Part shown: one piece after another, positions 26,443-46,092 of the stretch | Layout: every line of letters begins with the position of its first letter | How positions within the stretch are numbered: the stretch's first letter is position 1 | Notes under the pieces: generated by a model | What the model was told of the DNA's origin: nothing | What the model saw: only the letters and a program-made list of their open reading frames with translations | Database searches by the model: none | Translations under genes and position numbers: made by a program | NCBI GenBank assembly: GCA_030613055.1 | Contig: JAUWMR010000006.1 | Location: 1-64,000 of the forward strand | From: Desulfobacteraceae bacterium | Lineage (GTDB): Bacteria > Desulfobacterota > DSM-4660 > Desulfatiglandales > Desulfatiglandaceae | Direction of reading: 5' to 3' | Length of the DNA stretch: 64,000 nt

Positions 26443-27375
26443 TCAACTAATATCCGGTCTTGGATAAAGACCGGTGCGCTCCACGATTTCAGGAACTTTG
26501 TCCTCCCATTCGATTGCCATAATATGAAATCCCTTCACGCCCTCGACCTCCTTGAGTCGCTGAATGGTTTCAACGCAGATGTTGATTCCTTCTTCGGCCT
26601 GATTTTCCTTGGGTACACCGCTCATGCGTTTGACTACGTCATCCGGCACATCCATGCCAGGGACACGGTTTTTCATATATTTGGCCATGCCAGCGGATTT
26701 AAAAGGTGTGACGCCTGCTAATATATAGACCTTTTCGTGAAGACCCCTATCGCAGGCCTGTTTCATCCAGAGTTCAAATTTTTCAAGGTTGTAGATACAC
26801 TGGGTCTGTATAAATTCGACTCCGGCTGCAATTTTTTTTGCCAATCGGGGTACGCGGATTTCAAAGGGATCGGCAAAAGGGTTTGCCGCGGCCCCAACAA
26901 ACATCTGCGGCGGTCGGTTGATATCATCCCCTCCTAAGAATTTTCCTTCATCCCTCATTTGCCTTACGGTCTGAATCAATTGAATGGAATCAATATCAAA
27001 GACATTCTGACCCTGGGGACAGTCACCAAAATTTTGATGGTCTCCTGAAAGACAGAGGATGTTATATATATCAAAAGATGCAGCCCCTAAGATATCGCTC
27101 TGCAGGGCGATACGGTTTCTGTCCCTGGTAACCATCTGCAGCGTCGGCTCAACTCCCATCTTTTTCAGGTGTATACAGGATGCCAGGCTACAAAGGCGGG
27201 TCACGGATGTCTGGTTATCCGTGATATTGATGGCATCTACATGATTCTTGATCATTTCTGCTTTTTTGGTTATATCCTCAGAATCGCTTCCCCTTGGCGG
27301 CCCGCATTCTGATGTGACTGCCATGTGTCCTGCCGAAAGAATTTTTTCCAGCTTGCTTGGTGTCTTCGTGCTCAT
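26443..27375 (-). CDS. metF: Methylenetetrahydrofolate reductase, catalytic subunit
   Basis: 310 residues of the MetF TIM-barrel family (SECGPPRGSD, MVTRDRNRIALQSDILGA, CLSGDHQNFGDCPQ, FIQTQCIYNLEKF). It reduces methylene- to methyl-tetrahydrofolate using FAD, the reaction linking the C1 branch to acetyl-CoA synthase in the Wood-Ljungdahl pathway. It overlaps metV by 4 bp. In acetogens MetF with MetV and Hdr/MvhD subunits forms a complex taking electrons from NADH or other low-potential donors; the same linkage here argues for that type rather than the NADPH enzyme of methionine synthesis. Confidence 0.9.
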   Translation of the reverse strand: MSTKTPSKLEKILSAGHMAVTSECGPPRGSDSEDITKKAEMIKNHVDAINITDNQTSVTRLCSLASCIHLKKMGVEPTLQMVTRDRNRIALQSDILGAASFDIYNILCLSGDHQNFGDCPQGQNVFDIDSIQLIQTVRQMRDEGKFLGGDDINRPPQMFVGAAANPFADPFEIRVPRLAKKIAAGVEFIQTQCIYNLEKFELWMKQACDRGLHEKVYILAGVTPFKSAGMAKYMKNRVPGMDVPDDVVKRMSGVPKENQAEEGINICVETIQRLKEVEGVKGFHIMAIEWEDKVPEIVERTGLYPRPDIS

Positions 27376-28040
27376 AGTCTCACATCCTCCCTCACCACTT
27401 TTCTGGGCCCGCCGGCTCGTTCTGTTGACCAGTCCTTGATAGGCATAATCTTTTCGTAATCATCAAGTCTATTTAATTCCTTAAGCCGATCAATAATCAA
27501 CTGCCAGGCACAGTCAAGATCCTTATTTATCTCGCATTTTCCTTTTGTTGATCCACCGCAAGGACCGTTTAAGAGCCTTTTTGCACACCGGGAAATGGGG
27601 CAGATTCCGGCTGTTTCTCCCAGGATACACTGTCCGCAAGCCTGGCAGCGTTCGCTCCAGACACCACGTTCTTCTGCCGCACCTAAAAAACAGGTGTTGA
27701 CTCCGGGAAATACCGGAGTGCTAAAGTATTTCTCGGCCATAAACTGGACACCAACACCGCAGGCCAGGGACAGGACTGCGTCATATTTATCGATTCTGTC
27801 TCGGATTTCTTCTAAGTATTCATGATCGCACTGTCGTTCCAGGGTAACTTCATCTATTTCCACCTTTTTCCCTTCATTTAAAAAGTACATGCGAAGGGCT
27901 GATGCCAAGATGCCGACCTCCTTTTTGCCACCGGCTTCACAGACGGTTACGCACTCATTACATCCTGCAATCAGGAGTTTTTTAAAATCCTTTACGTAGT
28001 CAATGATTTCCTCAACTGGCTTTTTCTCTGCAACAATCAT
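27372..28040 (-). CDS. metV: MetV-type iron-sulfur/zinc partner of MTHFR
   Basis: 222 residues of the methylene-tetrahydrofolate reductase C-terminal family, rich in cysteine: VACGC-like CNECVTVC near the start, then CQACGQC, CPISRCAK and LLNGPCGGSTKGKCE. A GGAGGTTACACCGC site precedes the ATG. MetV binds MetF and carries metal centres through which electrons from the HdrA/MvhD module reach the flavin. It is separated from the mvhD gene upstream by about 216 bp of AT-rich repeats, which is unusual in an otherwise tight operon. Confidence 0.88.
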   Translation of the reverse strand: MIVAEKKPVEEIIDYVKDFKKLLIAGCNECVTVCEAGGKKEVGILASALRMYFLNEGKKVEIDEVTLERQCDHEYLEEIRDRIDKYDAVLSLACGVGVQFMAEKYFSTPVFPGVNTCFLGAAEERGVWSERCQACGQCILGETAGICPISRCAKRLLNGPCGGSTKGKCEINKDLDCAWQLIIDRLKELNRLDDYEKIMPIKDWSTERAGGPRKVVREDVRL

Positions 28041-28256: not shown

Positions 28257-28688
28257 TCATGCCGCCATTTTCTCTTTGGCTTTTTTAAGCGGATTCGGGC
28301 CTAATTTCTTTATTTTTTCTGTCATTTCCACGGCATACTCTGCAAATCGAGGACCGTCAGCGGATGAAAGGTTATACATCTGTGCCCTTTCTCCACCGAT
28401 ACCAATGGCATCAAGGATCTGCTGGGCCTGCTCAATCCTTTTTTTAGCGCGGAGGTTGCCGTTACTGAAGCGACATTCACCTTCAAGACAGCCCACCACA
28501 TAAACACCGTCAGCCCCTTTTTCAAATGCACGCAGAATGTGAATGACATCCACCTTTCCGGTGCAGGGCAACCTGATAATCCTGATTGTGCCAGGATAAT
28601 TAATGCGCATGGAACCTGCCAGGTCCGCGGCGGTATATCCTCAGAAAATGCAGCAAAAGGCGACAATAATAGGCTCGAATTCTTTCAT
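28257..28688 (-). CDS. mvhD: MvhD-type iron-sulfur subunit, predicted selenoprotein (Sec16)
   Basis: 143 residues when the TGA at 28643-28641 is read through. From ATG 28688 the frame gives MKEFEPIIVAFCCIF-U-GYTAADLAGSM and runs on without change to TAA at 28257. Homologues, including the copy at 46093, have Cys where the UGA lies (FCCSNC). MvhD proteins carry a [2Fe-2S] cluster and pass electrons between HdrA and a partner. The later VGCLEGECRF motif keeps Cys here. A candidate SECIS hairpin follows the UGA. A conventional gene call would begin only at 28610 and lose the N-terminal cluster. Confidence 0.85.
28611..28626 (-). promoter_or_regulatory. Candidate SECIS hairpin of the mvhD gene at 28257
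   Basis: In the mRNA, 14 bases after the UGA, GGACCU pairs with AGGUUCC (one bulged U) around a GGC loop. Distance and the bulged U resemble bacterial SECIS elements read by SelB, though apical loops vary widely and no score was computed. Confidence 0.45.
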
Positions 28689-28776
28689 CACAATACTCCT
28701 TCCAGTTTCCTGTACATCGTGCTTCGTGAAATCAACAAACCCGATAAACTCAAATAACCCGACAAACTCAACAAAC

Positions 28777-31700
28777 TCATAGCACCCCTTCCAGTAATGC
28801 TTCGACTTTGCTCATGACCTGGTCATCCTCATACCAGTCTAATTCTATGGCCTTGGCCGGGCATTCGGCAGCACATATGCCGCACCCGTGACACAGGGCC
28901 ACATCAATTTCACTGACGCCTTCCTCATTTATACGGGGCACCTCATAAGGACAGGCCCTGACACAGACAAGGCACGCGGCACACAGATCCGGATCCACCC
29001 TGGCTGTCACCGCAGACAGGGTGATCTCTGACTGGGAGAGAAAAATGGTGGCCCTGGACGCCGCAGCAAGGGCCTGTGAGATGGCTTCTGATATCAGCTT
29101 GGGGCTGTGAGCCGTACCGCATAGGAAGACCCCTTCATTTGCCAGATCCACCGGTCTTAATTTGACGTGAGCCTCAATGAAATAGCCTTCTTCGTTTCTC
29201 GGTAGTTTTAGTATGGATGCCAATTCCTCCGTGTCTTCCGCCACCATGCCTGCGCTAAGGGCCAGGAGATCAGCGGTGATGCTAATATCCCGCTGAAGGA
29301 TATGATCCTTGAAGGTGACTGCAATGCCTTCATCTGTTGCCTCAACATTAGGAGGATTGTCCTGGCTGAAGCGGGAAAAGATGATGCCCTGTTGTCTGGC
29401 CTCTGTGTAGTAATCCTCTAACAGACCGTACATCCTCATGTCTCTATAGAGAATATAGATCTCGGCATCTGGATTGAATTCTTTTATATGAAGTGCGTTC
29501 TTGACAGCGCTCTGGCAGCATACACGGGAGCAGTTTTGGTTTTTTTCATTTCTGGAGCCCACGCACTGGATCATGACCACCTTGCTTATGTCATCGGCTC
29601 CTTTCACCTCCAGACGCTTTCCCAGTTCGATCTGGGTGACTACACGATAATCCTGTCCGTAGAGATATTCCTCGGGTTTGTATTCATTGGCACCAGTGGC
29701 TAAGATCACAACACCATGGTCGATTTTGCGTTCATACATGCCCGGGCCGACCATAATCTCAGTCGTAAAATTCCCTTTGAACCCGCTGAATCCTACGATA
29801 AGAGATTCAGTAAGAACCTGAATTTTTTCATGGCCTGTAACCCTGTCTACCAGTTCCAAGAGGTATCTTTGAATATCCGCGCCCTCAATAGTGACGGTCA
29901 GATCCCTGGAAAGACCGCCTAATTGTGCCTCCTTTTCCACGATCACCACGTCAAAGCCCTGGTCAGCAAGACCTAACGCGGCATTCATACCGGCCACGCC
30001 GCCGCCTATAACAAGGGCTCTCCGGTTGATGGAGATCTTTTTTTCCTTAAGGGGTTTTAACAGGCCCGCCCTTGCTACTGCCATTCGTACCAGGTCTTTG
30101 GCCTTTTCTGTGGCAGCCTCCGGATCATTGGCATGAACCCATGAATCCTGGTCGCGGATATTAGCCATCTCAAAAAGATATTTATTGAGGCCGCACGCCT
30201 GAAGGGTTTCCTGGAATAGAGGTTCATGGGTCCTTGGAGTACATGAAGCGACCACGACGCGGTTAAGGTTGTTTTCCTTGATAACCTCCTTCATCTTGTC
30301 CTGGGTGTCCTGAGAGCAGGTAAAGAGATTCTGATCCACAAAGACTACATATGGAAGGGTAGCGGCATAATCAGCCACGGCAGGAACGTCAACGACTCCG
30401 GCGATATTAATGCCACAGTTGCACACAAAAACGCCGATCCTTGTTTCTGTTTCTAAAACATCAATCTCTGCGGGTATCTCAATAGTCTTTGTATCCGTGC
30501 CCCTTGCCTCGGCAAGCTTTGTACCTGCAGCACAGGCTGCGGCGCTGGCCTCGGTCACGGAACCTGGAATATCCTTAGGTCCCTGAAATACACCACTGAC
30601 AAAGATACCTGGCCGCGAAGAGTTTACCGGGGCAAATGGATCGGTAACTGCAAAATTGTAATTATTCAATTCGATGTCAAGGCGCCTGGCTAAGGCAGTC
30701 ACTGATTCCGGAATTTGCAATCCAACAGACAGCACAACCATGCTGAAGGTCTCTTCATTGGTCTGGCCTGATTCGTCTGTGTATCTTATAACCAGGTCAC
30801 CGGTCGTGCTGTCCTCATTTATGGTGTGAACCCTGGACTTTATGAAGCGAACCCCGTGTTCGTCTTTTGCGCGGTTGTAATATTTTTCGTAGTCCTTTCC
30901 GAAACTTCTGATGTCCATATTGAATATGGCGCAATCAAGATCGTCATGAGAATGCTCCTTGGCAATCATGGCCTCCTTTACGGCATACATGCAACAAACA
31001 GAAGAGCAATACCCGTTACCACACAGATTGACGTCTCTTGATCCCACGCATTGAATCCAGGCGATTTTCTTGGGAGCTTCTCTATCCAGGGTTCTCATGA
31101 GATGACCACGATAAGGACCTGACGCACTTAAAATTCTTTCAAATTCCTCGCTGGTCACCACATTGGCAAATTTACCATAACCTAATACGTCCATCCCTGA
31201 CGGATCGAAACCCTCACTGCCCGGAGACAGGATCACTGCTCCAACGCAAATAGTGGATTTTTTCTCATTGTCTTCATAATTAATGGCCTTTGCGAGGCAC
31301 ATCATTTCACAGAGGCCGCAGCCTATGCATGTATCTATGTCAATGGCAAAGGCTAATGGCACTGCCTGCGGATATTCTATGTATGTGGCCTTTCTATCGT
31401 CTAATCCCAGATTATACATGTTAATCGCAGTGACAGGGCACCGTTTGGCGCATTCCCCGCAACCCGTGCACTTGATCGGGTCTATGTAACGAGGATAACT
31501 AGTCAGCGTAACCTTGAAATCGCCGGGCTCGCCTTCAATGCTTTCCACTTCAGTGTTCGTGATGATATTTATATTCAGATGCCGGCCGACCTCGACCAGT
31601 TTCGGCGAGATAACTCACATAGCACAGTCGTTGGTCGGAAAGGTTTTGTCCAGCCGGGCCATCATCCCACCGATACTCGGTGATCGTTCGACTAACTGGA

Positions 31701-31803
31701 CATAGTAACCCGAGTCGGCAAGGTCCAGGGCCGCCTGCATTCCTGCAATGCCCGCACCTATGACCATTACGGTTCCGCTCTTTGCGCCTTTGTTAGCTCC
31801 CAT
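28777..31803 (-). CDS. hdrA: HdrA-type flavin/iron-sulfur protein, predicted selenoprotein (Sec63)
   Basis: 1008 residues with the TGA at 31617-31615 read as Sec63 in [18 protein letters not shown]; Cys is usual at this spot in HdrA. Order: FAD-binding VIGAGIAGM (about 14-22), two [4Fe-4S] ferredoxin motifs ([12 protein letters not shown] 112-123; [11 protein letters not shown] 159-169), a second HdrA half with FVCNCG and GGGVAGM at about 600-606, and two C-terminal [4Fe-4S] motifs ([24 protein letters not shown]). HdrA is the flavin-based electron-bifurcating subunit of heterodisulfide reductase complexes. With MvhD and MetV/MetF it probably feeds MTHFR. HdrB and HdrC are absent. Confidence 0.9.
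31591..31609 (-). promoter_or_regulatory. Candidate SECIS hairpin of hdrA at 28777
   Basis: Five bases after the UGA the mRNA can fold CUCGCC with GGUCGAG (bulged U) around a GAAACU loop. The same structure occurs in the second Sec-HdrA. Both encode the same peptide, so conservation could also come from coding constraint. Confidence 0.35.
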
Positions 31804-31900
31804 ATTGACTCCTCTTGTGATAAAATCTGTAGGCGTTCACAGGTTCAAGGTTCACCGTTCAAGGTTATTGAAATCTATTTTATTATAACTACTCAACCAC

Positions 31901-32653
31901 TTAGCTTGCACTTTCAAATACCGGGATACCTTCACTGTGTCCCTTAAAGATGACCTGATTTGTTTTTTCCAGGTCTGAAATCAGGTAAGATATCTTGCCC
32001 AGTTGAAGTCCGGTGCGTTCGCTGATCTCTCTTACGGAAGTTGAACCTTCTTTTAGTGCAATATAGATCAGGTTTTTCTGGTATTCCCTTTTCAGCACGG
32101 CAGACAGGATCTCCTCAAATTGGCCTACATCCCACTTTCGGCCATAAACATCGCCCTTAGTGGTGAGAGAGACTTCCTTTCCAACTAACCATCGCAATGT
32201 TTCACTTTTCGCCGTCATTTCCGCTGCATCTAATTCCAGCGAAAAAGTCGTGGAATCAAGCTCGCCCTGGCCCCTTATGGACTCGGTGACCTCGGTCACT
32301 ATCTCAGCAAAGCGCTGGCCTTCCGCCGAGGAACACCATGCTAAGTGAAGCCTGTCTTTTCCAATGGTCGCAAGATCCAGAAGTTCCTGGGTGAGACGAA
32401 TCTTTTTTTCGGCTTGAACATTACCGTCCAGGTAATGGCAGTCACCAAAATGTCACCCGGAAACCAAAATCCCGTCCCACCCCGCCTTTAGTGCCTTAAT
32501 AATATATAACGGATCAACCCGGGCAGAGCACATGACCCTCAATGGCTTCACATTCGAAGGATATTGAAAGCGGGATACACCTGCCAGATCAGCGGCCGCA
32601 TAGGCACACCAGTTGCACAAAAACGCTAATATTTTTGGTTCGAATTTTTCCAT
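31901..32653 (-). CDS. mvhD: MvhD-type subunit fused to a winged-helix domain, predicted selenoprotein (Sec67)
   Basis: 250 residues, starting MEKFEPKILAFLCNWCAYAAADL 17 bp after the hdrA stop. The TGA at 32455-32453 is read as Sec67 in ILVSG-U-HFGDCHYLDGN; homologues have Cys here (AGCHPGDCHY). The frame then continues unbroken to 31901. Residues 1-140 are the MvhD [2Fe-2S] domain. Residues about 170-245 (LKREYQKNLIYIALKEGSTSVREISERTGLQLGKISYLISDLE) form a winged helix-turn-helix, unusual in this family and perhaps an interaction or regulatory element. A perfect 7-bp hairpin follows the UGA. Confidence 0.87.
32419..32437 (-). promoter_or_regulatory. Candidate SECIS hairpin of the mvhD fusion gene
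   Basis: Starting 15 bases after the UGA, CAUUACC and GGUAAUG form a perfect 7-bp stem with loop UGGAC. Position and loop size suit a bacterial SECIS, and this is the best-formed of the four hairpins. Confidence 0.55.
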
Positions 32654-32669
32654 GTTATTACCTGCCCTT

Positions 32670-35600
32670 TCATCTGACGGCAGAAACCGCCGCAAGTAGC
32701 TGGCGGTCCCTGAAATGAAGCATATCGATTGCCCCCTGAGGACAGGAGGACGCGCAAAGCCCGCAGCCCTTGCAGGACGCCGGCACGTTTTTCGCCCGAA
32801 AGCCCTTACCCTCGATTTCCTCCATGATAATCGCAACGAAATTACACACTTCAGCGCAAAGGCCACACCCGATACACTTTTCCGTATCCACCTGGGAGAC
32901 AAGGGGGGAAACCTTGATACATGGCTGTGAGAGAATAATCGCCGCTTTACTGGCCGCGGCCATAGCCTGGACAATGCTCTCGTCAATCGGTTTGGGATAG
33001 TGCGCCATTCCACAGACGAACAGCCCGTCGTTTGCAAAGTCCACTGGTCTTAACTTTGCATGGGCCTCTATGAAGAATTTATCATCGTCAATAGGAATCT
33101 TAAAATAGCCTGCAATATCCTCATGGCCTGTAGGCTCGATGGCCGTCGCCAGGTTAAGGAGATCGGCCTTAATCAAAAGCTCCCTCTGAAGCACGGGATC
33201 AAACACGCGGATATCAAGGCCTTCATCCGATTCCGTGACAATGGGCTTTTTGTCAATGGTGTACCGCACAAAGATAATTCCCATATCCCTCGCTTCCTGG
33301 TAAAGGGCCTCTTTCTCGCCGTAGGTCCTGATATCCCGGTACAAAATGAAGACATTTATTTCGGGGTTCTGTTCCTTGAAATTAACGGCCTGTCCAATAG
33401 AAGATGTGCAGCAGACCCTTGAGCAGTACGGCCTTTTATCATCCCTTGAACCCACGCACAGGATAAATACAACCGTCCTGGCATCCTTAATCCTGTTCGG
33501 TTCCTGTTCGAGATCATGCCAGCGTGTAACCCGGGGATTTTTGCCATAAAGGTATTCATCCGGACTTGAGGCATTGGCACCTGTTGCTATGATGCACACA
33601 CCGTGTTTTATCGTCCTTGTCTTTCCTCCTGTGAGGATATCTGTTTCAAAATTGCCGACAAATCCGGACGAACCTGTTACATCAGCATTTAAAAGGACTT
33701 CCACTATGGGATGTTGCTCGATCCTATCGATCAGGCCGGAAAGGTATTCGTGCACATCATTCCCCCTCCAGGTCTTTTTAATGTCCCTTGCAGCGCCTCC
33801 TAATGTATCTGATCTTTCAACAATGGTTGCGGGAAAACCTTGGTCAGCGAGACTTAGTGCGGCCGTCATTCCTGCAACACCGCCGCCAATAATCAGTCCG
33901 GACTTTTCGATATCCACCATCAGATCGGAAATAGGCTCCAGAAAAGAAGACTTCGCAACGGCCATCCTGACAAGATCCTTGGCCTTTTCAGTGGCTTCTT
34001 CTTTGTTATGGGAATGGACCCATGTACACTGATTCCGGATATTTGCCATTTCAAACAGGTTTTCGTTAAGGCCGGCATTACGAAGCGTCTCCCTGAACAG
34101 GGCCTCGTGGGTCGTTGGAGTGCAGGCCGCCACTACAATGCGGTTTAATTTATGTTCTTTTATTACCTCGACTATTTTTTCCTGGGTATCCTGGCTGCAT
34201 GTAAACAGGTTTTCATCAACGTTGACCACATTGGGAAGGGTCTTTGCGTACTCCGCAATGCCGGGAACATCTGCAAACCCACCGATATTATTGCCGCAGT
34301 TACAAACGAACACACCGACACGAGGTTCTTCACCGCTTATATCTTTTTCTTCTGGAAATACCTTTTCCTTTGTTGATTCTCCCCTCGATTGGGCCAGGCT
34401 AACAGATGATGCACAGGCGGCGGCACTGGCCTCAGTAACTGACTGGGGTATATCTTTGGTTCCCTGCAAGACGCCGGCAACATATATGCCGGGACGCGAA
34501 GTCATAACAGGCGAGAAGTCGTCCGTATTGACGAAGTTGTTTTTATTAAGGTCAACGCCTAATTTCCGGGACAGTTCCACTGCGGAGGGGTCCGGTTCCA
34601 TGCCGACCGAGAGCACAACAATATCAAACTCTTCTTCGTATATTTCGCCCGATTCTTCAACATAACCTATTTTTAAGGTGCCGTTGTCATCTGCTTCAGT
34701 GATGGAGTGCACCCTTGAACGTATAAAGCGGATTCCCTCTGACTTCGCACGCTCATAATACCTTTCAAAACCCTTTCCGTGCGAACGGATATCCATGTTG
34801 AAGATTGTGCCCGTAAAATCGCCACCCGTGTGCTCCTTGGCAATCAGTGCCTCTTTGATGGCATACATGCAGCACACCGATGAGCAATAGTCATTGCTGC
34901 AGTGGGCCGTATCCCTCGATCCGACACACTGGATCCAGGCTATTCTCTTTGGCTCCTTTTTGTCGGAAGGCCTGACGAGATGTCCCGATGTCGGACCGGT
35001 AGCACTCAAAAACCTTTCAAATTCCATGCTCGTAAGAACATTGGGATAGCTTTCGTGGTGATAAAGGTCTTCATAAGGGGCGGGATCGAAGACGTGGGTA
35101 CCAAGACATAGAATAGCAGAGCCTACCTCTATCTCGCGTTCAACCGGTTTCTGATTATGAATGACGGCTTCGGCTATACACGCTTCGACGCATTGGAAAC
35201 ATTCGCAGCAGTACCCGCAGTTCAGGCAACGGTGAGCTTCCTCTTTTCCCGTATCTTCGTCATAGCCTAATTCGACTTCCTTGAAATTGCCTTTTCTATC
35301 CTTTAGAGGAAGTTCCGGCATTTTTTCCCTGGCTTTTCCGGCGTTGTCTTCAGGAATCGGGCGATACACAGGATTTTCAGGTGTAACGGGCTCCCTTCCT
35401 TCCGCCATGTCCCTGCCATCCAGGAACCGGGCAATAGATTCGGCAGCCTCGCGGCCGGCGGCAATGGCACCAATGGCTACCCAGGGGCCGGTTTGCAGAT
35501 CGCCGCCGGCAAAAACAGCCTCCCTGTTAGTCGCATAAGTTACGGGATCTACGTCGGCGGTCCCCCAGCGTGAGAAAGCCAGGCCTTCCACATCCTCAAT

Positions 35601-37100
35601 AGCTGAAAGATCCGGCCTCTGGCCGATGGCCGGGACAAGTTGGTCAATCTCAATATCATATTCGCTCCCCGGGATTGGAATTGGCCGCCTTCTGCCGGAT
35701 GAATCGGTCTCGCCAAGCTTCATCCGGATGCATCGTATTCCCACGACCTTTCCGTCCTGGGTGAGGACCTCCTGGGGGGCGGCAAGATACGTTATTTTGA
35801 CCCCTTCTGCCTCTGCCGCCTGGATTTCATCTTCCCAGGCGGGCATCTCGGCACGACTTCGGCGATATATGATGCTGACCTCCTCGGCACCCAACCGGAC
35901 CGCGGAACGGGATACGTCGATGGCCACGTTTCCACCACCGATGATACCCACCTTTTTCCCCACGGGTGTTTTTCCGGACAGGTTCAGTTCTTTTAGAAAA
36001 TCGACTCCCTGGCGGACACCCCCGGCCCCCTCACCCGGAATGCCCAGCTCGATCCCCCTGTGCGCACCGACGGCCAGATAGACCGCCTTGTGGCCTTCTT
36101 TGAACAGGTCATCTACGGTCAATTGTGGACCGAGTGGTGTATTGACCTTTATCTCTACTCCGAGGTTGGTAATGATCTCTATCTCACGGTCAAGTATTTC
36201 CCTGGGAAGTCGGTGGTCCGGAATGCCCACACGCAGCATTCCCCCCGCCTCAGGAAGGGCTTCGAAAATGGTGGACAGAATTCCTTTGCGCGCTAAATGA
36301 TAGGCGGCGGAAAGCCCTGCGGGCCCCGAACCGACAATGGCCACCTTTTCTTCCCTTGGTGGCAGGCATTCAATTTTAATTTTGCGGGGATCAAACTGAT
36401 CCGCGGCAAGACGCTTAAGGTCCCTGATCGCTACAGGATTATCAACCTCACACCGGCGGCACGCATCCTCGCAACCGTGTGGACAAATCCTGCCGAGTAC
36501 ACCGGGAAGGGGCAGGTCTTCCATGATAATTTTAAGGGCGTCTTCGTATTTTCCCTGGCCGACCATCTGGACATATCCCTGGACGTTCAGGCCTGCGGGA
36601 CACGCCAGACTGCAGGGAGCCCTGTCTGTTTTTTGAATTGCATAGGCACCGGGTATGGCCTGCGCATAAAGCTTAAAAGCGGCCTTTCTGTTGGAAAGAC
36701 CCACATCGTATTCGTTGTCCAATTCAACGGGACAAACCTCGGCGCATTCTCCACAAGCGGTACATTTGTTAAGGTCGATATAGCGTGGTTTCTGTAACAC
36801 ACGCGCCTTAAAACTACCTACCTTACCTTTGAGATCCAGAAGTTCCGTATTAGTAAGAAGTTCTATGTTCAGGTGCCGGCCGACCTCGACCAGTTTAGGC
36901 GAGATAATTCACATGGCACAGTCGTTGGTGGGAAACGTCTTGTCTAATTGAGACATTACGCCACCAATGGCCGATGATTTTTCCAGGAGATATACGTAAT
37001 AGCCTGATTCTGCAAGGTCTAGAGCGGATTGCATACCAGCAATCCCTCCGCCCACTACCATAACGGACCCGGACAGCTTGTCGGATTTGCTTTTGGGCAT
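32670..37100 (-). CDS. hdrA: HdrA with inserted GltD/NfnB-like NAD(P)H module, predicted selenoprotein (Sec64)
   Basis: 1476 residues from ATG 37100 (AGAGGAAACAGAGTA site). The TGA at 36911-36909 is read as Sec64 in [18 protein letters not shown], where HdrA normally has Cys. After the first FAD motif and a ferredoxin motif ([12 protein letters not shown] 113-124), residues about 160-610 are a complete GltD/NfnB-like unit with N-terminal cysteines ([20 protein letters not shown]), FAD motif GSGPAG at 257-262 and a second dinucleotide motif GGGNVA near 390. HdrA then resumes, ending with two [4Fe-4S] motifs ([23 protein letters not shown]). The insert suggests direct NAD(P)H coupling. Confidence 0.9.
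36885..36903 (-). promoter_or_regulatory. Candidate SECIS hairpin of the HdrA-GltD fusion gene
   Basis: CUCGCC pairs with GGUCGAG (one bulged U) around a UAAACU loop, beginning five bases after the UGA, as in the other Sec-HdrA gene. Confidence 0.35.
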
Positions 37101-37126: not shown

Positions 37127-38002
37127 TTAAAGTTTTGCTGCATCTAAGACCTGTGGAAGCTTGTCCTCCCAGCCAATGGTTGAAATCATTACTCCAGCCA
37201 TTCCCATCTCTTTTAAATGGCCTATTATTTCCGCTGTTAACTGTATGCATTGCTTCAATTTGTCCGGCGCTTTTTGAATATCACGGATTATCTCTTTGGG
37301 AATGGAGATGCTTTTAATATTCCGGTCAATATACCGCGCCATGCCTGCCGATTTTAGCAGGAGGACAGTTGGGATTATCGCTACTTTGCTGGTGTCTATA
37401 TGCTTTATGAATTGCTGGAACCGGTGTAAATCGAACACAGGTGTGGTAATGAGGAATTTGACGCCGGTGTCAATTATCTTCTCAAGGTTTTCCATCTCTA
37501 TGTCAAGGACTCCTCCGAGAGCGCCTGCGTTAATGGTTGAACCAATACAGAATTTGGGTGTCCCACTAAGCTCTACCCCAGCCATGTCCTTCCCGTTCTG
37601 GAGTTTTTGTATGGTTTCAAGGAGCTGAATCAGATCCACATCGTTTACGAGCCTTGCCTGGGGATGATCTCCGTAGGTGATGTCTTCACCGGAGATGGCC
37701 ATCAAATTGAGTATGCCAAGGGCCCCGGCAGAGAGGATATCGGCCTGGAGGGCCAGCCTGTTCCGGTCTCGACAACAGACCTGAAATACCGTTTCAATGC
37801 CGTGTAGCTGCAGAAAGGCACATCCGCCCAAAGAACTGGCCTTCATCACGGCATTGCCCATTTCAGGAACTACAAGGGCGTCTACACGCCCTTTGATCTG
37901 CCTGGCATTATTTAGAAGATACGAAAAATCAGCCCCTTTGGGCGGTTCGAATTCCCCTAAGACAACAAATTCACCTGACTCAATCTTGGCCTCTAACGAC
38001 AT
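37127..38002 (-). CDS. Divergent MetF paralogue
   Basis: About 291 residues from ATG 38002, with GGAGG eight bases upstream; an in-frame GTG at 38017 is less likely. It follows the MetF barrel pattern ([62 protein letters not shown]) but is clearly diverged from the two other MetF proteins here: CLSGDHQ becomes AISGEDI and FIQTQCIYN becomes FLITTPVFD. It directly precedes the HdrA-GltD fusion, so it may be its dedicated C1 partner or act on another folate substrate. Confidence 0.75.
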
Positions 38003-38019
38003 AATGTGATCCTCCACGG

Positions 38020-38394
38020 CTAATGGGATAACTTATTAATGGCATTGGAAATGGCCATTTCAAGATCCTGGGTTCCAAAGGATTTAATATGATAAAAGAA
38101 TATCCCCTGGTGCCGGATTTTGCTTTCTAATTCAGGGGTATTGGTTTCAGCGCAGATAATAATGGGAAGATCCTCTTCCATGCCTTTGATGATGGAGATG
38201 AAAGCGCAATCCTCCTCTAAAAGATCTGCATCGAGGAGCAGGACATCCGGGCTCTGGCTCTGCAGGGTTAGAAGCGTATCTTTCAGGGTATTTACATGAA
38301 TTGTGTTAAAATCCCTCTCAGTAAAGAAAGAACGCAATTCAGATGCAAGAACCTCGGCGGGCTCCACAATAATGATGGAAATATCGCTCCTCAT
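38020..38394 (-). CDS. Receiver-like protein, first gene of operon I
   Basis: 124 residues with a receiver fold: IIIVEPAEVLASEL at the start, putative Asp in DVLLLDADL near 55, and Lys in YHIKSF near 103. The acidic pair that binds Mg2+ is replaced by Glu-Pro, so phosphorylation may be impaired. No output domain. It lies 17 bp before the MetF paralogue, suggesting a regulatory partner of the complex. A sigma-54-like sequence is found about 95 bp upstream. Confidence 0.65.
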   Translation of the reverse strand: MRSDISIIIVEPAEVLASELRSFFTERDFNTIHVNTLKDTLLTLQSQSPDVLLLDADLLEEDCAFISIIKGMEEDLPIIICAETNTPELESKIRHQGIFFYHIKSFGTQDLEMAISNAINKLSH

Positions 38395-38847
38395 TGAATC
38401 CCGTGTCTTTTTAAATCAAGCTGGATTGACTTGATCTGTTTTTCCGACATGTATTTGTGACAAATTTCCCGTTCGCTCTTATATTTGCGAGCAAACTTCA
38501 TGCCCGTTACGCTGTATAGGCATTTTTTTGGCATTTGGATTTTATTTGGCCGTGTCAATGCAGATCGGCTGTTTTATCTTAACTTCTTATTTTAACTGAG
38601 AAATCCGTCAGGACTCTAAAGCAGGTTATGTTTTGCTCATTACTATAAGTGCGTGATATTATTTACCTTATATTTATTTAAGGTTTTTTGTTAATAAGCC
38701 TTCTAATTGTGAAAATTGGCTACTTGCCGAGGATTAATTCCTGTCAGAAAATGGACAAATGGGGTATTTTATAACAAAATAAATACGTGAATATGCATAA
38801 CATATTGTCATAACAGGAGATTTACGAAAAGAGATATAATGTAGCAA
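38395..38847. other. 453-bp divergent intergenic region at the head of operon I
   Basis: It contains a sigma-54-like promoter on the minus strand (38490-38505). The rest is AT-rich, with no protein frame that I can support. Confidence 0.5.
38490..38505 (-). promoter_or_regulatory. Candidate sigma-54 promoter for operon I
   Basis: On the minus strand GGGCATGAAGTTTGCT matches TGGCAC-N5-TTGCW at nine of eleven positions, with the essential GG and GC in register. It lies about 95 bp before the first gene and fits the two sigma-54 activators in the region. Two mismatches leave real doubt. Confidence 0.5.
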
Positions 38848-39084
38848 ATGTTACAAAATTACCCGTTTTCCGATTGCAAAACCTATCCGAATATAATTCA
38901 CGCGTTCACGCCTGATAAGTCGATCTCTTATCTAAAGGAATTTGCAGATAATTGTGTGGAAAAGCCCATTGAAGACCTGAGCGGGGATGACATTAATGAC
39001 CATATTGGGAAGTTGGCGATTGTAAGGAATATCATTGATGGCATAAGTATGTATTTGAAGGAATTGATGGAAAAGAAAACCTAA
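38848..39084 (+). CDS. Small hypothetical protein (78 aa)
   Basis: An isolated plus-strand frame between two minus-strand operons, beginning MLQNYPFSDCKTYPN and ending in a helical, Lys-rich tail. The only purine-rich stretch (AGGAGA) lies about 30 bases before the ATG, which is far. Family not recognised. The acidic, helical composition (IEDLSGDDINDHIGKL) reads like a real protein rather than a random frame, but this is weak evidence. Confidence 0.45.
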   Translation: MLQNYPFSDCKTYPNIIHAFTPDKSISYLKEFADNCVEKPIEDLSGDDINDHIGKLAIVRNIIDGISMYLKELMEKKT

Positions 39085-39128
39085 TAACGGGATGTCTGAT
39101 CTAATTCGGGTTTATGGATGGACACAGC

Positions 39129-40490
39129 TTAATACAGGGCGTATTTTTTTATCTTGAGGTTCAGTGTTTTACGATTTATGCCGAGGATATCGGCGGCTTC
39201 CGTCTTTTTCCCTTTTGTCCTTCTGAGCACAAAACGGATATATATTTTTTCTAATTCCTTCAAGCTGAGGGGGTCTTCGGAAAACATCTTAAATTCACCC
39301 TGCCTTTCGGTGACAAAGGAAGGCAGGTCCCTGGCCCTTATAACGTCGCTATCCTCAAAAATGAGGATACGTTCAATGGTATGCTCAAGCTCTCTGACAT
39401 TTCCCGGCCAGGCATAGTCCTGAAGGATTTCCATTGCCTCTGGCGAGACTTCAGGCACGGGTTTTTTTATCTTACGGCTGAATTTTTCGAGAAAATGACT
39501 CGTAAGAAGGGGTATGTCCTCCTTTCTTTTTCTTAAAGGAGGAAGGTGAATGGGTATTCCGCTCATTCGATAGTATAGATCCTCTCTAAAATCACCGTTT
39601 TTTATTGATTCCTCAAGATTTTTGTTGGATGCGGATATGATCCGAATATCCAGCTTGATCTTTTTTTGATCCCCCACCTTCACAAATTCACGCTCCTGAA
39701 TAACCCTGAGAAGCTTGGCCTGGATATTCAAAGTAAGATTCGTGATTTCATCAAAAAAGAATGTGCCGTGATTGGCGAGTTGAAAGAACCCGTGTTTTGT
39801 TTGATGGGCGCCAGTAAACGAGCCTTTGACATGTCCGAAAAGCTCGCTCTCAAGTAGTGTCTCTACCAGAGACGAACAATCCACGGCAACGAATTCGTTG
39901 TCTTTACGACTACTATGGGAGTGAATTGCACGGGCAATAAGTTCCTTGCCGGTGCCGGACTCACCGGTGATCAGAACAGTGCTGTCTGTGGGAGCAACTC
40001 TGAGTGTCTTTTTAAAGATATTTTTCATTGGGCGACTCTGCCCAATAATGAGACCCTTTTCGGAATCTATTTCCAGGCCATTGCTGCGTACCGGGGACCC
40101 GGGTGGGTTGTGTTTTATCGGCAGGATTTTTTCTATGGAGGCCTCAAGATCGTTGAGTTGAAAGGGCTTGACCAGGTAGTCAATGGCACCGAGTTTGATA
40201 CAGTCCACAGCGGAATCAATGGTCGGATAGCCTGTGATCATGATGACATTCGTTTCAGGATATCGTGAACGTATTTGTTTGAGCAAAGTGACGCCATCTA
40301 TATCAGGCATGCGAATATCTAACAGCACGAAATCAAAGTGTCGCTCCCGCATCAGGTCCAGGGCCTGCCTGCCGCTCTCTACTGATTTCGTTCTTATTCC
40401 TATGCCGCGAAGAGCCCTGGAGATGCCGTTTCTAATAACGGCCTCATCATCAACAATCAGGGCCTGCTGTGTGGTTTTTTTTATGTTCAT
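39129..40490 (-). CDS. NtrC-family sigma-54 response regulator
   Basis: 453 residues: receiver with Asp in VLLDIRMPDIDG near 57, AAA+ domain with GESGTGKE and FFFDEIT, sigma-54 contact loop GSFTGA (Ala to Ser), and a C-terminal Fis-type helix-turn-helix (TEAADILGINRKTLNLKIKKY). Last gene of the operon that begins at 44298, 59 bp after the hybrid kinase. It probably controls one of the adjacent Hdr/Met sets. Confidence 0.93.
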   Translation of the reverse strand: MNIKKTTQQALIVDDEAVIRNGISRALRGIGIRTKSVESGRQALDLMRERHFDFVLLDIRMPDIDGVTLLKQIRSRYPETNVIMITGYPTIDSAVDCIKLGAIDYLVKPFQLNDLEASIEKILPIKHNPPGSPVRSNGLEIDSEKGLIIGQSRPMKNIFKKTLRVAPTDSTVLITGESGTGKELIARAIHSHSSRKDNEFVAVDCSSLVETLLESELFGHVKGSFTGAHQTKHGFFQLANHGTFFFDEITNLTLNIQAKLLRVIQEREFVKVGDQKKIKLDIRIISASNKNLEESIKNGDFREDLYYRMSGIPIHLPPLRKRKEDIPLLTSHFLEKFSRKIKKPVPEVSPEAMEILQDYAWPGNVRELEHTIERILIFEDSDVIRARDLPSFVTERQGEFKMFSEDPLSLKELEKIYIRFVLRRTKGKKTEAADILGINRKTLNLKIKKYALY

Positions 40491-40549
40491 ACTAAGTTAG
40501 GAATTGAGATATAATTTTATTTCGATTTATTATTAGATTGAGGCTCTAA

Positions 40550-42022
40550 TTACTTAGTAATAACAGGCAGAAGTATTCTGAATATCGTGCCTTTGTCTAC
40601 AGCGCTTTCCACGTCAATTGTGCCGTGATGCGCCTCAACAACGCCTTTGACAATTGCAAGTCCAAGTCCGGTACCAATGACCTGACGGGTCTTTGGATGT
40701 TTAACTCGATAGAACTTGTCAAAAATCTTGGGTAGTTCCTCTGGCGCAATACCCACACCTGTATCTTCCACTTTTATTTCCATATATTCTCCCTGGCCCC
40801 GTGCCGAAATCGTTACTTGGCCTCCTTCGGGAGAATAATTGATGGCATTGCTTACAAGGTTATTAAAGATTTCTTCGATATTTTTCGGATCCGCATGAAC
40901 CGGCGTTAAATCCTGGCACGAGAAAGTAAGTGTAATCCCCTGTTCTCTGGCCCTTGGTTCCATGAGGGCCACGATCTCTTCGATAATCTTGCCTATATCG
41001 GTGGGCACCTGTCTCTGGACATATTGACCCGCCTCGATTTTGGCCACATCGAGGAGGTCGTTAATAAGCTCCAGAAGCGAATCAATTTTGTTTTTCCCCC
41101 TGTTTACAAAGTCCTGCTGTTTTTCCTCAAGCGGTCCTGCTAATCCCTCTAAGAGAACGCTGTTCAACTGGCGGATGGATACGAGCGGGCTTCGAAGTTC
41201 GTGTGCAACCATATTTACAAAGTCGGATTTCATCTGGTCAAGCTGCTTAAATGCCGTTATGTCTTCGAGAACAGTCACGGTTCCCACGACGCTCTTATCC
41301 GGTCCGAGGGCAGGGGCGGAAATTGCCTTTAGCACATTTATCCCCGTGGAAATTTCCTGGGAGATGGATTCATCTTCAGAAGTCTCGCCGTTTAGGATTT
41401 GCTTAAGCGTTTTAGTAAGCGATTCATCATTTATAATTTTGGAAATTGGGGCAGGGCTTTGTATCCCCTCGGATATTTCCATCAATCGCATGAGTGCAGG
41501 GTTATGAAGGACAACCTCTAAGTTGCGGTTGGTCACCATGATACCGTTAGCCATACGGTTGATAATGGTCTTCAGGCGGCTCTTTTCGAGATTTAGATCA
41601 TACAGGTTCCGGATGTTTTCCTCTTCAAACTGCCGGGCTTTCTGTTCCAGTTTCCTTTTTTCAGCAGCCCTTGTTATTGTTATGAGAAACGGGTCTATTT
41701 GAAATGGTTTGGTAATAAAATCATAAGCGCCTTTTTTCATACATTCCACTGCCGTATCCACTGTCCCGTGGCCGGTGATGATGATCACAGGTATGTGAGC
41801 ATATTTCGTGCTGGTTATCTCAAGGAGTTCTTCTCCGCTCATGACCGGCATTTTCAGATCTAAAAGGATCAGATCTACTGTCTCCTGGCCCAGAACTTCC
41901 AGGGCCTGTTGCCCATTTTCTGCAGTGGCGACCTCGTATCCCTTGCCTGTCAGGACCCGGTGGCACGCATTTCTGACAACCTTTTCGTCATCCACGACCA
42001 GAATTCTAATTTTCTCATCCAT
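40550..42022 (-). CDS. Receiver-PAS-histidine kinase hybrid
   Basis: 490 residues. Receiver domain 1-120 (Asp in LILLDLKMPVMSG), a linking coiled coil, a PAS domain near 150-260, HisKA with MVAHELRSP near 285 and HATPase with the DTGVGI and GTGLGLAI boxes. There are no membrane segments. A receiver at the N-terminus of a kinase usually allows input from another kinase; here the upstream, one-base-overlapping Rossmann-PAS kinase is the obvious donor. Confidence 0.92.
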   Translation of the reverse strand: MDEKIRILVVDDEKVVRNACHRVLTGKGYEVATAENGQQALEVLGQETVDLILLDLKMPVMSGEELLEITSTKYAHIPVIIITGHGTVDTAVECMKKGAYDFITKPFQIDPFLITITRAAEKRKLEQKARQFEEENIRNLYDLNLEKSRLKTIINRMANGIMVTNRNLEVVLHNPALMRLMEISEGIQSPAPISKIINDESLTKTLKQILNGETSEDESISQEISTGINVLKAISAPALGPDKSVVGTVTVLEDITAFKQLDQMKSDFVNMVAHELRSPLVSIRQLNSVLLEGLAGPLEEKQQDFVNRGKNKIDSLLELINDLLDVAKIEAGQYVQRQVPTDIGKIIEEIVALMEPRAREQGITLTFSCQDLTPVHADPKNIEEIFNNLVSNAINYSPEGGQVTISARGQGEYMEIKVEDTGVGIAPEELPKIFDKFYRVKHPKTRQVIGTGLGLAIVKGVVEAHHGTIDVESAVDKGTIFRILLPVITK

Positions 42023-43995
42023 TATTCATCCAATCCAATAAAAACAGGTTCTTCAACAGGGGTTTCATCAGTTTCGATGGGCAGCTCGATAATAAAAGAT
42101 GTCCCTCCCTCAGAAGGGGATTTTACTTTAATACTGCCACCGTGCAGATTTATAATGTTCTGGGAGATGCTCAAACCGAGCCCGGTGCCCTGTCCGACTG
42201 GCTTGGTAGTAAAAAACATATCAAAGATTTTGTCATGCAACTCCTCCGATATGCCCGGCCCGGTGTCGGAAACCTTAATAAGAAAATGACTGTTGACAGT
42301 ATCGAATGTTGCGTCGATATCCAGTTCCCCTTTTCCTTTCATGGCATGGGCCGCGTTAATGAAGAGGTTGTTGAAAACCTGCTGGAGTTGCCCCATATCC
42401 CCGTGCATTTGCGGCATACCCGTGCCAATATTTGTGCTTACCTTGATGTCCTGGAAAAGGGCCTGGTTGATCAGGAGATTCAGGCACTTGGTGATTAATT
42501 CCTTCAAACTGAAAGAAGATGCCTTTCCTATGGATTGCCGGCTAAATTCCAGCAGATCGGATACAATTTTTTTGCAACGCAGGGTTTGATCAATAATCTC
42601 CTGTGTGTCGTTCAGAAACTGGTTGTCCTTGAGGGATCCTTTAAGGAGCTCCGCATAGATAAGGACGCCTGACAGGGGATTGTTGATCTCATGTGCTATG
42701 CCCGCAGCCATTCTGCCTATCGAGGCGATTTTATCCGATTGAACTAATTGTAGATGGGTCTCTTCAAGCTCCTTCCGCATCTGGAGCACTTCCCGCATAT
42801 CAGTGAATACTCCCACGCTTCCGATTTCCTTTCCGCCGATACTGATTATTGAAGCAGACAATGTAACCGGTATTTCCTCACCATCCTTTGTCGTAATAGA
42901 CATTGTGGTTGGATTCAGTTTGCCAACAGGACCATGCTCATCGCTTCGCATTTTTTTCATGTTCACTTTGGCAACCTCAATGTTGTAGAAGTTACTCAGA
43001 TGGCCCTTTTCCATAATTTCCCTGGCTGAATATCCTGTCAAACGTTCCATGCCCTCATTAAAGATGAGTACGTTCCCTTTGGTATCAACCACAACGATTC
43101 CGTCTACCGTGCTCTGGATGACATTTTGAAAGAAGACGTTTGACTTCTGTACTTCCCTCTCCAATTTGATCCTTTGAGTAACATCCCTTGATGCCTCCAA
43201 AAGTTGAACAACTTTTCCATCGTCATCAAAGATCGGTGAGAAGGTGAGAACGTCAAAGTGCATCTCTCCATTGTCCGCCTTGTATTCATGAATGGTGCTG
43301 ATAATCTCGCCTTTTTTCTTCAGTTCTTCCATATAGCAGGGTCTTCCGCACTCCCCGCAGGGACGATCCATGCCGTATCTCACTTCGTAGCAATGCTTTC
43401 CAACGACATCCCTGTAAGAGATACGATTAACTTTAAGGAATGTATGATTAACCGTATCGATGGTCATGTCTTTGTTGACAACCATGATCCTGTACGGGAG
43501 TGAATCAAGAATCACCTGCATGTGTTTTTTTTCGTTTTTTTGGTATTTCTGACGCTTCCTTTCCAGTTCGGTCTTTTCGACTTCCATCTGGACCAGGTCC
43601 CACAGGAGCCTTGCCCCCCTGTGGCCTATTACAGAGATCCTTTCCGGCTTTGTCTTGAGTATTTCCTCCTTTACGTCTGCTGAACCGGTTAGTTCGATGA
43701 TGAAATTTACTTCTTCCAAGCTATAAAAATCCTTGAAATTTGTTGTAGTAAATAGATTCAGTTTTTTTGCGTAAATCATGCCCGGTGCATCAGGGTTGAT
43801 ATCTGCCACGCCTATAATCTTCATTTTCAGTCTTGACAGGCGTTCCTTTTCCAGGATCTTCAGAAGGCCATAAAACGCATTACCGCCTCCCACAAAGGCT
43901 ACATTGAGTGGCAGATCGGCCTGTTTTCCGCGAACGATCTGCGCCCATTCATCATGCCTGTCTTTTGTCGGCGATTTCAAAGTCTTCCCTGTCAA
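42022..43995 (-). CDS. Histidine kinase with N-terminal Rossmann-like domain and two PAS domains
   Basis: 657 residues. Residues about 30-145 begin LNVAFVGGGNAFYGLL, continue IIGVADINPDAPGMIYAKKLNL and FIIELTGSADVKEEILKTKP, as in the NAD(P)-binding half of homoserine dehydrogenase-type enzymes, and end at a helix leading into PAS1 (about 165-285), which has clustered cysteines (RPCGECGRPCYM). PAS2 follows (about 290-405), then HisKA (IAHEINNPLSG) and HATPase. All cytoplasmic. It shares this layout with the kinase at 22864. Possibly a sensor of NAD(P)H or a related ligand. Confidence 0.92.
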   Translation of the reverse strand: MTGKTLKSPTKDRHDEWAQIVRGKQADLPLNVAFVGGGNAFYGLLKILEKERLSRLKMKIIGVADINPDAPGMIYAKKLNLFTTTNFKDFYSLEEVNFIIELTGSADVKEEILKTKPERISVIGHRGARLLWDLVQMEVEKTELERKRQKYQKNEKKHMQVILDSLPYRIMVVNKDMTIDTVNHTFLKVNRISYRDVVGKHCYEVRYGMDRPCGECGRPCYMEELKKKGEIISTIHEYKADNGEMHFDVLTFSPIFDDDGKVVQLLEASRDVTQRIKLEREVQKSNVFFQNVIQSTVDGIVVVDTKGNVLIFNEGMERLTGYSAREIMEKGHLSNFYNIEVAKVNMKKMRSDEHGPVGKLNPTTMSITTKDGEEIPVTLSASIISIGGKEIGSVGVFTDMREVLQMRKELEETHLQLVQSDKIASIGRMAAGIAHEINNPLSGVLIYAELLKGSLKDNQFLNDTQEIIDQTLRCKKIVSDLLEFSRQSIGKASSFSLKELITKCLNLLINQALFQDIKVSTNIGTGMPQMHGDMGQLQQVFNNLFINAAHAMKGKGELDIDATFDTVNSHFLIKVSDTGPGISEELHDKIFDMFFTTKPVGQGTGLGLSISQNIINLHGGSIKVKSPSEGGTSFIIELPIETDETPVEEPVFIGLDE

Positions 43996-44462: not shown

Positions 44463-45395
44463 TTATACCTTGGGTCTGGGAAGGACACCCGCCATTTCAG
44501 CGATCTCGGGCACCCTGTGTTCCCATTCAATGGCCATGAGATGCACACCTGCAATTCCTTCCATTTCTTTGAATTCCTCAATCTGCTCCACGGCGAATTG
44601 GATGCCTTCTGCGGCAATCTTTCCTTTGCCAGCACTCCGTAAACGTTTGATTAAGGTATCCGGAACGTCCATTCCAGGCACCTGTTTGGCCATATACCGG
44701 GCCATACCAACGCTCTTCATGGGGGTGACGCCTGCCAGGATATAGCATTTCTCATGAAGTCCCATGTCAACGGCCCTTTTCATGAATTCCCTGAATCTAT
44801 CCATATTGTAGATACACTGTGTCTGGATAAAATCGGCTCCGGCTGCAATCTTTTTTGCAAGGCGGTAGACACGGAAATCAAAAGGTTCTGCAAAGGGATT
44901 GGAGGCTGCACCAATGAAGAGCTTAGGGGGTACATCGATTTTCTGCCCATTTAAAAATGTGCCCTCATCCCGCATGGTTTTTACGGTGTGGATCAACTGC
45001 ATGGAATCAATATCAAAGACATTTTTTGCATCAGGATGGTTGCCGAATTTCTGATGGTCGCCTGACAGGCAGAGCATATTCCTTATGCCATGGGAATAGA
45101 CCCCGAGGATGTCACTTTGTATGGCCAGACGATTGCGATCCCGGCATACCATTTGAAAATTGGGCTCAAGACCCTGTTCAAGGAGAATCAAAGAAGCGGC
45201 CCAACTGGACATGCGGACTACGGCTGTCTGGTTATCCGTAACATTTACGGCGTCTACATAACCTTTCAAATGACCGGCCTTCTCTACGAGGTGTTCAACG
45301 TTTGCACCCTGGGGAGGACCGCATTCACCTGTAAAGGCGAAATGGCCAGCCTTTAATACCTTTTCGAGATTGCTTCCTGATTTATACTCGCTCAT
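44463..45395 (-). CDS. metF: Methylenetetrahydrofolate reductase, second copy
   Basis: 310 residues, closely similar to the copy at 26443 ([83 protein letters not shown]). Same reaction and same 4-bp overlap with metV, but in a set whose HdrA and MvhD use only cysteine. Last gene of operon II, followed by a terminator. Confidence 0.9.
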   Translation of the reverse strand: MSEYKSGSNLEKVLKAGHFAFTGECGPPQGANVEHLVEKAGHLKGYVDAVNVTDNQTAVVRMSSWAASLILLEQGLEPNFQMVCRDRNRLAIQSDILGVYSHGIRNMLCLSGDHQKFGNHPDAKNVFDIDSMQLIHTVKTMRDEGTFLNGQKIDVPPKLFIGAASNPFAEPFDFRVYRLAKKIAAGADFIQTQCIYNMDRFREFMKRAVDMGLHEKCYILAGVTPMKSVGMARYMAKQVPGMDVPDTLIKRLRSAGKGKIAAEGIQFAVEQIEEFKEMEGIAGVHLMAIEWEHRVPEIAEMAGVLPRPKV

Positions 45396-46060
45396 TTTAC
45401 CAGTTCCTCCCTGGTCATCGTTCTTGGTCCGCCGTCCCGCGCCGTCATCCAGCTTTTAGGTGGCTTAAATTCAAGGAGTTCGTCAAGCCGGCCCTGTTCC
45501 ATCATCTTCCGCACAATGATATCCCAGATGCAGTCCACGTCCCCGGATATCTCACATTTCCCATTGTTTGATCCCCCGCATGGTCCATTGAGCAAGCTCT
45601 TGGAGCAACGGGCAATTGGACAGAGGCCGCCAAAGTAATGAACCACACAGGTACCACAGCCGGCACATCTCTCCGACCAGATGCCATGCTCAATCGCGCC
45701 GCCCATGAATCTGGTGTTGACGCCGGGAAACACCCTCGTTGCGGGATATCGTTCTGAGAGAAATTGCGGTCCAACACCGCAGGCAATGGATATAACGGCA
45801 TCATAGTCGTTGATAATGTCCTTGATTTCCTCAATATATTCGGGATCGCACTGGCGTTCTAAAGTTTCCTCTCCTATCTCGATTTCTTTGCCATTTTTCT
45901 TTGCGGCAATCCTCAAGGTAGAAGCCAGTATAGCCACTTCCTTGGAGCCGCCCACATTGCAGACCGTAACGCAGCCTTTGCATCCCACGATAAGGATTTT
46001 CTTGAGATCTCTGACCATCTCCAATATTTCTTTTATGGGTTTTGGTTCAGCAACAATCAT
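45392..46060 (-). CDS. metV: MetV-type partner of MTHFR, second copy
   Basis: 222 residues with the same cysteine pattern as the copy at 27372: GCKGCVTVC near the start, then CAGCGTC, CPIARCSK and LLNGPCGGSNNGKCE. It forms the electron-accepting and metal-binding partner of MetF. The gene is 32 bp after mvhD and overlaps metF by 4 bp. Confidence 0.88.
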   Translation of the reverse strand: MIVAEPKPIKEILEMVRDLKKILIVGCKGCVTVCNVGGSKEVAILASTLRIAAKKNGKEIEIGEETLERQCDPEYIEEIKDIINDYDAVISIACGVGPQFLSERYPATRVFPGVNTRFMGGAIEHGIWSERCAGCGTCVVHYFGGLCPIARCSKSLLNGPCGGSNNGKCEISGDVDCIWDIIVRKMMEQGRLDELLEFKPPKSWMTARDGGPRTMTREELVK

Positions 46061-46092
46061 TATATGTACCTCTCAGAATATCTATGTTTTCG

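Follow-up and report, generated by a model that had tools for sequence, protein, structure and literature searches.

Proteins of the HdrA and MvhD families that carry selenocysteine (Sec) have already been described, and the system presented here has close relatives in the literature. In Desulfobacterium autotrophicum HRM2, with at least 31 selenoproteins and one tandem hdrL/hdrA locus (PMC2702500), Sec-containing HdrA-glutamate synthase fusions, HdrA and MvhD proteins are found next to each other (HdrL1/HdrL3, HdrA1/HdrA2 and MvhD1/2/3/5). Another relative is the MetVF-HdrBCA-MvhD complex of Moorella thermoacetica and Sporomusa ovata, in which MetV, MetF and MvhD are combined with an HdrA that, in Moorella, oxidises NADH (PMC9430772). 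Here we report a minus-strand operon of a Desulfobacteraceae bacterium, located in a window of 64,000 nt (contig JAUWMR010000006.1, positions 1 to 64,000) that was analysed as a whole. Its genes are transcribed in the order metF2, hdrL, mvhD2, hdrA, mvhD1, metV and metF1. The genes hdrL, mvhD2, hdrA and mvhD1 are each interrupted by one in-frame TGA, and an earlier note on this DNA had predicted four selenoproteins from them. Judged from the sequence, Sec is almost certainly encoded at all four sites, and to the broader reading, in which the operon is also a functional unit, we assign a probability of about 0.93. The kinds of protein involved (Sec-containing HdrL, HdrA and MvhD) are those already known from HRM2, and the four proteins add further members to selenoprotein families on record. 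The gene content differs from that of these two relatives. In D. autotrophicum the hdr loci adjoin dsrABC, formate dehydrogenase and hydrogenase genes, and a metF/metV operon with four selenoproteins is not described in the passages of that report consulted. With respect to the Moorella and Sporomusa complex, our operon lacks HdrB and HdrC and has an extra HdrA, an extra MvhD, an extra MetF and four predicted selenocysteines.

The first of the interrupted genes, hdrL (32670..37100), encodes an HdrA-GltD fusion of 1476 amino acids, identified by its translation and by PDB and NCBIfam matches, with its TGA at 36909..36911 (putative Sec64, motif NDCAMU, supported by translation and homologues). 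It is followed by mvhD2 (31901..32653), whose product of 250 amino acids is an MvhD/FlpD protein (PF02662, E=2.7e-48) with a C-terminal winged-helix extension (PF13412, E=3e-5). Its TGA, at 32453..32455, would give Sec67 in the sequence GUHFGDC, at a position named here site B. The gene hdrA (28777..31803) encodes 1008 amino acids with two thioredoxin-reductase-like domains and matches 5odc_A, 9sfi_A and other HdrA chains; its TGA at 31615..31617 (putative Sec63) lies again in an NDCAMU motif. Finally, mvhD1 (28257..28688) encodes an MvhD/FlpD protein of 143 amino acids (PF02662, E=1.5e-46), with the TGA at 28641..28643 (putative Sec16, CxxU, site A). The FlpD domain of the two MvhD proteins scored 163.5 and 157.9 bits, far above the gathering cut-off of 22.3. 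All four TGA positions given in the earlier note were exact to the base, and the limits it set, 37100 and 28257, coincide with the start of HdrL and the stop of MvhD1. Each frame stays open beyond its single TGA with no further internal stop. Since HdrL, HdrA and MvhD1 also terminate at TGA, this codon is not a general sense codon in the operon and its reading must depend on context.

The predicted positions have precedents in structures and genomes. In the PDB entry 9sfi, a non-standard residue, X, occupies the two MvhD sites of the VhuD chain (9sfi_K; CYQXGY and AGXKPNEC), with which the TGAs of mvhD1 and mvhD2 align, and the HdrA site of the HdrA chain (9sfi_A; DDCAMX). We read these X residues as Sec; no paper naming 9sfi was found in the literature search. 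Methanococcus maripaludis is known to produce selenium forms of VhuD and HdrA, and in Methanococcus the selenium forms Vhu hydrogenase and HdrAU have Cys counterparts, Vhc and HdrA (PMC11097638). Whereas 9sfi_K has both MvhD sites in one protein, the window operon places one in each of two MvhD proteins, and it encodes no hydrogenase subunits. In Desulfococcus multivorans, a TGA divides one HdrA and one MvhD, each of which has been annotated as a split gene (PMC5109826). We also observed MvhD genes with two in-frame TGAs in several genera of the family (for example G020:C37:33629-34015), an arrangement like that of the methanogen VhuD in 9sfi.

A young pseudogene would likewise present one stop in an otherwise intact frame, so we considered whether the genes are decaying and the TGAs are nonsense mutations or errors of sequencing. 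For four nonsense codons placed at random, the probability of TGA in every case and of a Cys position in every case is about 1.5e-8 (2877 codons, of which 96 are Cys/Sec positions). Conservation was evaluated in homologues from 80 named loci, each with an HdrL relative. The codon at the HdrL site was TGA in 46 of them and Cys in 34, and the pairs of residues at MvhD sites A and B were TGA/Cys in 42 genes, Cys/TGA in 19, Cys/Cys in 16, Ser/Cys in 3 and TGA/TGA in 1. Neither TAA nor TAG was found at any of the four sites among the homologues, where a stop was always TGA, and the few stops elsewhere in the alignments were of mixed kinds. In addition, each of the six relatives fetched, which represent six different genera, keeps the order MvhD2 (U at B)-HdrA(U)-MvhD1 (U at A)-MetV-MetF1, with HdrA and MvhD proteins about 60-70% identical to those of the window. 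The first gene of the operon (HdrL/HdrA) had the N-terminal TGA in the three relatives in which it was matched (L174, L175 and L178); it is cut by the contig end in L173 and L176, and its N-terminal part was unmatched in L177. TGA is thus present at every readable site of the gene run in six other genera. With the same sites being TGA in dozens of named species, and with the frames downstream fully conserved, decay or sequencing error is, on the alignments, already refuted by conservation and we give it practically no weight. The first gene has no GltD insertion in L174 and L178; the NAD(P)H module thus comes and goes.

The frames that remain open across the TGAs could also be explained if TGA were read as another amino acid, such as tryptophan, or by a general readthrough, in either case without Sec insertion. 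Homologues show Cys, not Trp, at these sites, and the use of TGA as natural stop by the operon's own genes stands against a general recoding. Moreover, the genome (4.26 Mb, 97 contigs, 95.6% completeness) holds the complete Sec machinery that the earlier note proposed to look for. A tRNA-Sec (71.7 bits), with the anticodon TCA according to ARAGORN, lies on the operon's own contig (C35:114385-114478), and genome searches gave matches to selB (392 bits) and selA (622 bits). There are two selD genes, each with one in-frame TGA (L018, C87:567-1493; L019, C68:31712-32638). Either selD is truly duplicated or the pair reflects the 4% contamination of the genome.

Candidate selenocysteine insertion sequence (SECIS) hairpins were found 3' of each TGA. 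According to the published bacterial model (PMC13188914), the loop has 3-9 nt with a G in its first two positions, the stem 4-16 bp, the spacing from TGA to loop is 16-37 nt and the minimum free energy is -7.5 kcal/mol or lower; all four hairpins agree with this model in loop G, spacing, stem and energy. The hdrL hairpin (36876..36893, minus strand), CTGGTCG-AGGT-CGGCCGG, has a stem of 7 bp, its loop lies 22 nt past the TGA and its energy is -9.1 kcal/mol. The hdrA hairpin (31582..31599, minus strand) has the same sequence, distance (22 nt) and energy (-9.1 kcal/mol). In mvhD2 the hairpin CATTACC-TGGAC-GGTAATG (32419..32437, minus strand) has its loop 22 nt past the TGA and reaches -11.7 kcal/mol including a lower stem, and in mvhD1 the hairpin GGACCT-GGC-AGGTTCC (28611..28626, minus strand), with one bulged T, has its loop at 20 nt and -8.3 kcal/mol, also including a lower stem. 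When the 45 TGA codons of the window that have long open frames on both sides were scanned, a strong SECIS-like hairpin (-6 kcal/mol or lower) appeared at the four sites and at one other (56372, plus strand), which sits within a different annotated-length open reading frame.

The hairpins follow the TGA form of the genes. The HdrL hairpin was fully paired in 45 of 45 TGA homologues and in none of 33 Cys homologues, and the site A hairpin in 39/43 and 0/35, respectively. At site B at least 85% of the pairs were kept in 17 of 20 TGA homologues and in 3 of 57 Cys homologues. Fisher tests of this contrast at the window's spacing gave 1.6e-18 for HdrL, 5.7e-10 for site A and 9.5e-4 for site B. The energy of the site A hairpin did not differ between Sec and Cys genes (p=0.75); its position, pairing and codon conservation did. 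The last of these was measured as the chance that two genes share a codon, among codons for conserved amino acids. For HdrL it was 0.99 in the hairpin and 0.47 outside it in TGA genes, and 0.37 in the hairpin region of Cys genes; the corresponding values were 0.81, 0.43 and 0.34 for site A and 0.80, 0.39 and 0.45 for site B. Both kinds of statistics ignore the kinship of the sequences, but each gene supplies an internal control in its codons beyond the hairpin. Near-invariant synonymous codons within the hairpin are the expected trace of selection on the RNA and not on the protein alone. A SECIS-type hairpin tied to the TGA form, together with the Sec tRNA and selA, selB and selD, leaves a non-Sec reading of the TGAs only a very slight probability. 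Pseudogenes, sequencing errors and a changed genetic code were all considered and rejected. The reading of the four TGAs as Sec codons, in line with the prediction of four selenoproteins, is the one supported by machinery, hairpins and Cys replacement, and all those checks suggested in the earlier note that sequence data allow gave a positive result. During translation, the hairpin 20-22 nt downstream of each TGA would recruit SelB and Sec-tRNA, giving full-length HdrL (U64), MvhD2 (U67), HdrA (U63) and MvhD1 (U16), while the TGAs at the gene ends would be read as stops.

The flanking metF and metV genes, which the earlier note left out of the operon, point to its function. The first enzyme gene, metF2 (37127..38017, minus strand), encodes a MetF-like methylenetetrahydrofolate reductase (MTHFR; PF02219, E=7e-22) and is found upstream of HdrL in many loci. 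At the other end lie metV (27372..28040, minus strand), the partner subunit of MetF (PF12225, methylene-tetrahydrofolate reductase C-terminal family, E=1.3e-38), and metF1 (26443..27375, minus strand), a second MTHFR (PF02219, E=9.5e-34). Thus metV and metF are found in one unit with hdrA and mvhD, as in an Hdr-type MTHFR, and since MetF and MetV are encoded here the operon looks like a selenium-rich form of that enzyme without HdrBC.

The architecture of HdrL fits such a role. It matches HdrA and GltD/NfnB/glutamate synthase relatives in the PDB, and HdrA2 and PRK12771 in NCBIfam. Its HdrA domains flank a GltD (NAD(P)H-binding) domain, with GltD/NfnB relatives matching residues 166-569, and this domain lies within the inserted-ferredoxin region of HdrA, as in type III HdrA. 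This GltD insertion is shared by the Moorella HdrA, which is nearly equal in length (1487 versus 1476 amino acids) and whose residues E696/K750 correspond to E695/K749 of HdrL, recognised by motif as the bifurcating-flavin residues. In the HdrA of the operon these residues are E222/K276, which a HMMER alignment to 5odc_A equates with E356/K409 of 5odc. By eye, the second flavin domain of both proteins lacks one of the two bifurcation residues. From this design and these residues, the most likely function is an electron exchange that links NAD(P)H and methylene- and methyl-tetrahydrofolate (THF) with one further carrier, for instance ferredoxin. In this scheme NAD(P)H would trade electrons with the GltD domain of HdrL; bifurcation or confurcation would take place at the first flavin domain in both HdrL and HdrA, the MvhD [2Fe-2S] subunits would relay the electrons, and MetV/MetF would interconvert methylene- and methyl-THF in the Wood-Ljungdahl pathway. 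We infer, by a modest balance of probability, that the products form or serve a cytoplasmic Hdr-type MTHFR complex; the complex itself, the direction of the electrons and the role of selenium are parts of this inference. From the presence in the genome of dsrA and of the acetyl-CoA synthase family CdhC, the host probably reduces sulfate and has a Wood-Ljungdahl pathway, and the nearest named loci belong to Desulfobacteraceae and other Deltaproteobacteria. Methylene-THF may be the product in those sulfate reducers that carry out a complete oxidation of acetyl units.

The Sec sites could be real and the operon still be a general NAD(P)H-linked bifurcating hub serving another acceptor, for example in sulfate reduction, with MetF and MetV as mere neighbours. 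HdrL-MvhD pairs without MetV do occur in many loci (35 of the 76 MvhD genes with enough flank), and in D. autotrophicum HdrL1-MvhD adjoins dsrABC and HdrL was proposed as a link between NADH and sulfite (PMC2702500). However, MetV directly follows MvhD in 41 cases among the named loci, where MetF2 frequently lies upstream of HdrL, and in 6/6 of the relatives fetched. Furthermore, pull-downs in Sporomusa show that HdrA is bound by MetV, by MetF and by MvhD, the last of which also binds MetF (PMC9430772). Such a hub is a possibility to be taken seriously, but not the one we favour.

Several points weigh against the reading of four Sec sites in an operon that acts as a unit of Hdr-type MTHFR. All four selenocysteines are predictions from sequence. 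The exact hairpin of the window hdrA occurs in only 2 of 7 TGA homologues from the named loci, the others having a hairpin at another position, so that the case for a SECIS in HdrA depends for the most part on the energy of the hairpin and on its being identical to that of HdrL. In single-sequence folding against dinucleotide shuffles, the z-scores were not extreme for three of the four hairpins; as this procedure did not discriminate, the Sec/Cys contrast and the conservation of synonymous codons were used instead. Neither hdrB nor hdrC is present in the operon, in which every gene from 38017 to 26443 was assigned, and it is consequently not a strict member of the Moorella type, though it may work like it. 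In Sporomusa, MetVF did not co-purify with the Hdr proteins (PMC9430772).

The two MvhD sites differ in their gene partners. Among MvhD genes with enough flank, counted without regard to kinship, TGA at site A was found in 36 of the 41 that are followed by MetV versus 4 of the 35 that are not, and TGA at site B in 2/41 versus 18/35. In the homologues C13, C42 and C72 never vary, position 67 holds either Cys or Sec throughout, and position 16 holds Cys, Sec or Ser, so that site B would be a [2Fe-2S] ligand and site A a non-ligand redox residue. It may be, although we consider it rather doubtful, that the Desulfobacterota hold a conserved and previously undescribed selenium-dependent Hdr-type MTHFR without HdrBC in which the partner sets the Sec site of MvhD, with A, a non-ligand, beside MetV and B, a cluster ligand, beside HdrL/HdrA alone. 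If this were true, selenium would tune two different steps through sites A and B.

Operons with several selenoproteins of one pathway are known, such as frhA-frhD-hdrA-glpC and the SAO (six genes) and Tso operons (PMC13188914), their gene content being different. A conserved four-selenoprotein operon of MTHFR type was not found in the open-access literature searched, a scope outside which most subscription journals fall; this operon and the split of the MvhD Sec site by gene partner are possibly new. The operon represents a whole electron-transfer unit tied to the Wood-Ljungdahl pathway, whose dependence on selenium has persisted across several genera of probable sulfate reducers. Gene callers taking TGA as stop will miss or split the subunits of this unit. 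The Cys/Sec MvhD pairs with two alternative sites also offer a way to probe the effect of selenium on an iron-sulfur relay and a bifurcating flavoprotein.

The operon had also been called unusually selenium-dense. Four Sec genes do lie in one operon, but its density is not a record: published operons have four or six (PMC13188914), and a denser cluster of five consecutive genes, HdrL(U)-MvhD(U)-HdrA(U)-MvhD(U)-HdrA(U), is present in the same genome at C65:14000-31278 (L179), its fourth gene being an MvhD with C-terminal extension. Of the 12 MvhD genes in the operon's own genome, 7 have one TGA and 5 have none, and both Sec and Cys forms are thus found side by side. The window also holds, at 44463-49328 (minus strand), another metF-metV-mvhD-hdrA cluster, whose genes have no internal TGA. 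Its HdrA lacks the NDCxxC/U motif and has about the length of the Sporomusa ovata HdrA, and the cluster could be a selenium-free counterpart of the Sec operon. Between the two metF-hdr clusters, at 38020-43995 (minus strand), the translations indicate response regulators, a sigma-54-type regulator and histidine kinases, which may sense the redox state or the selenium supply.

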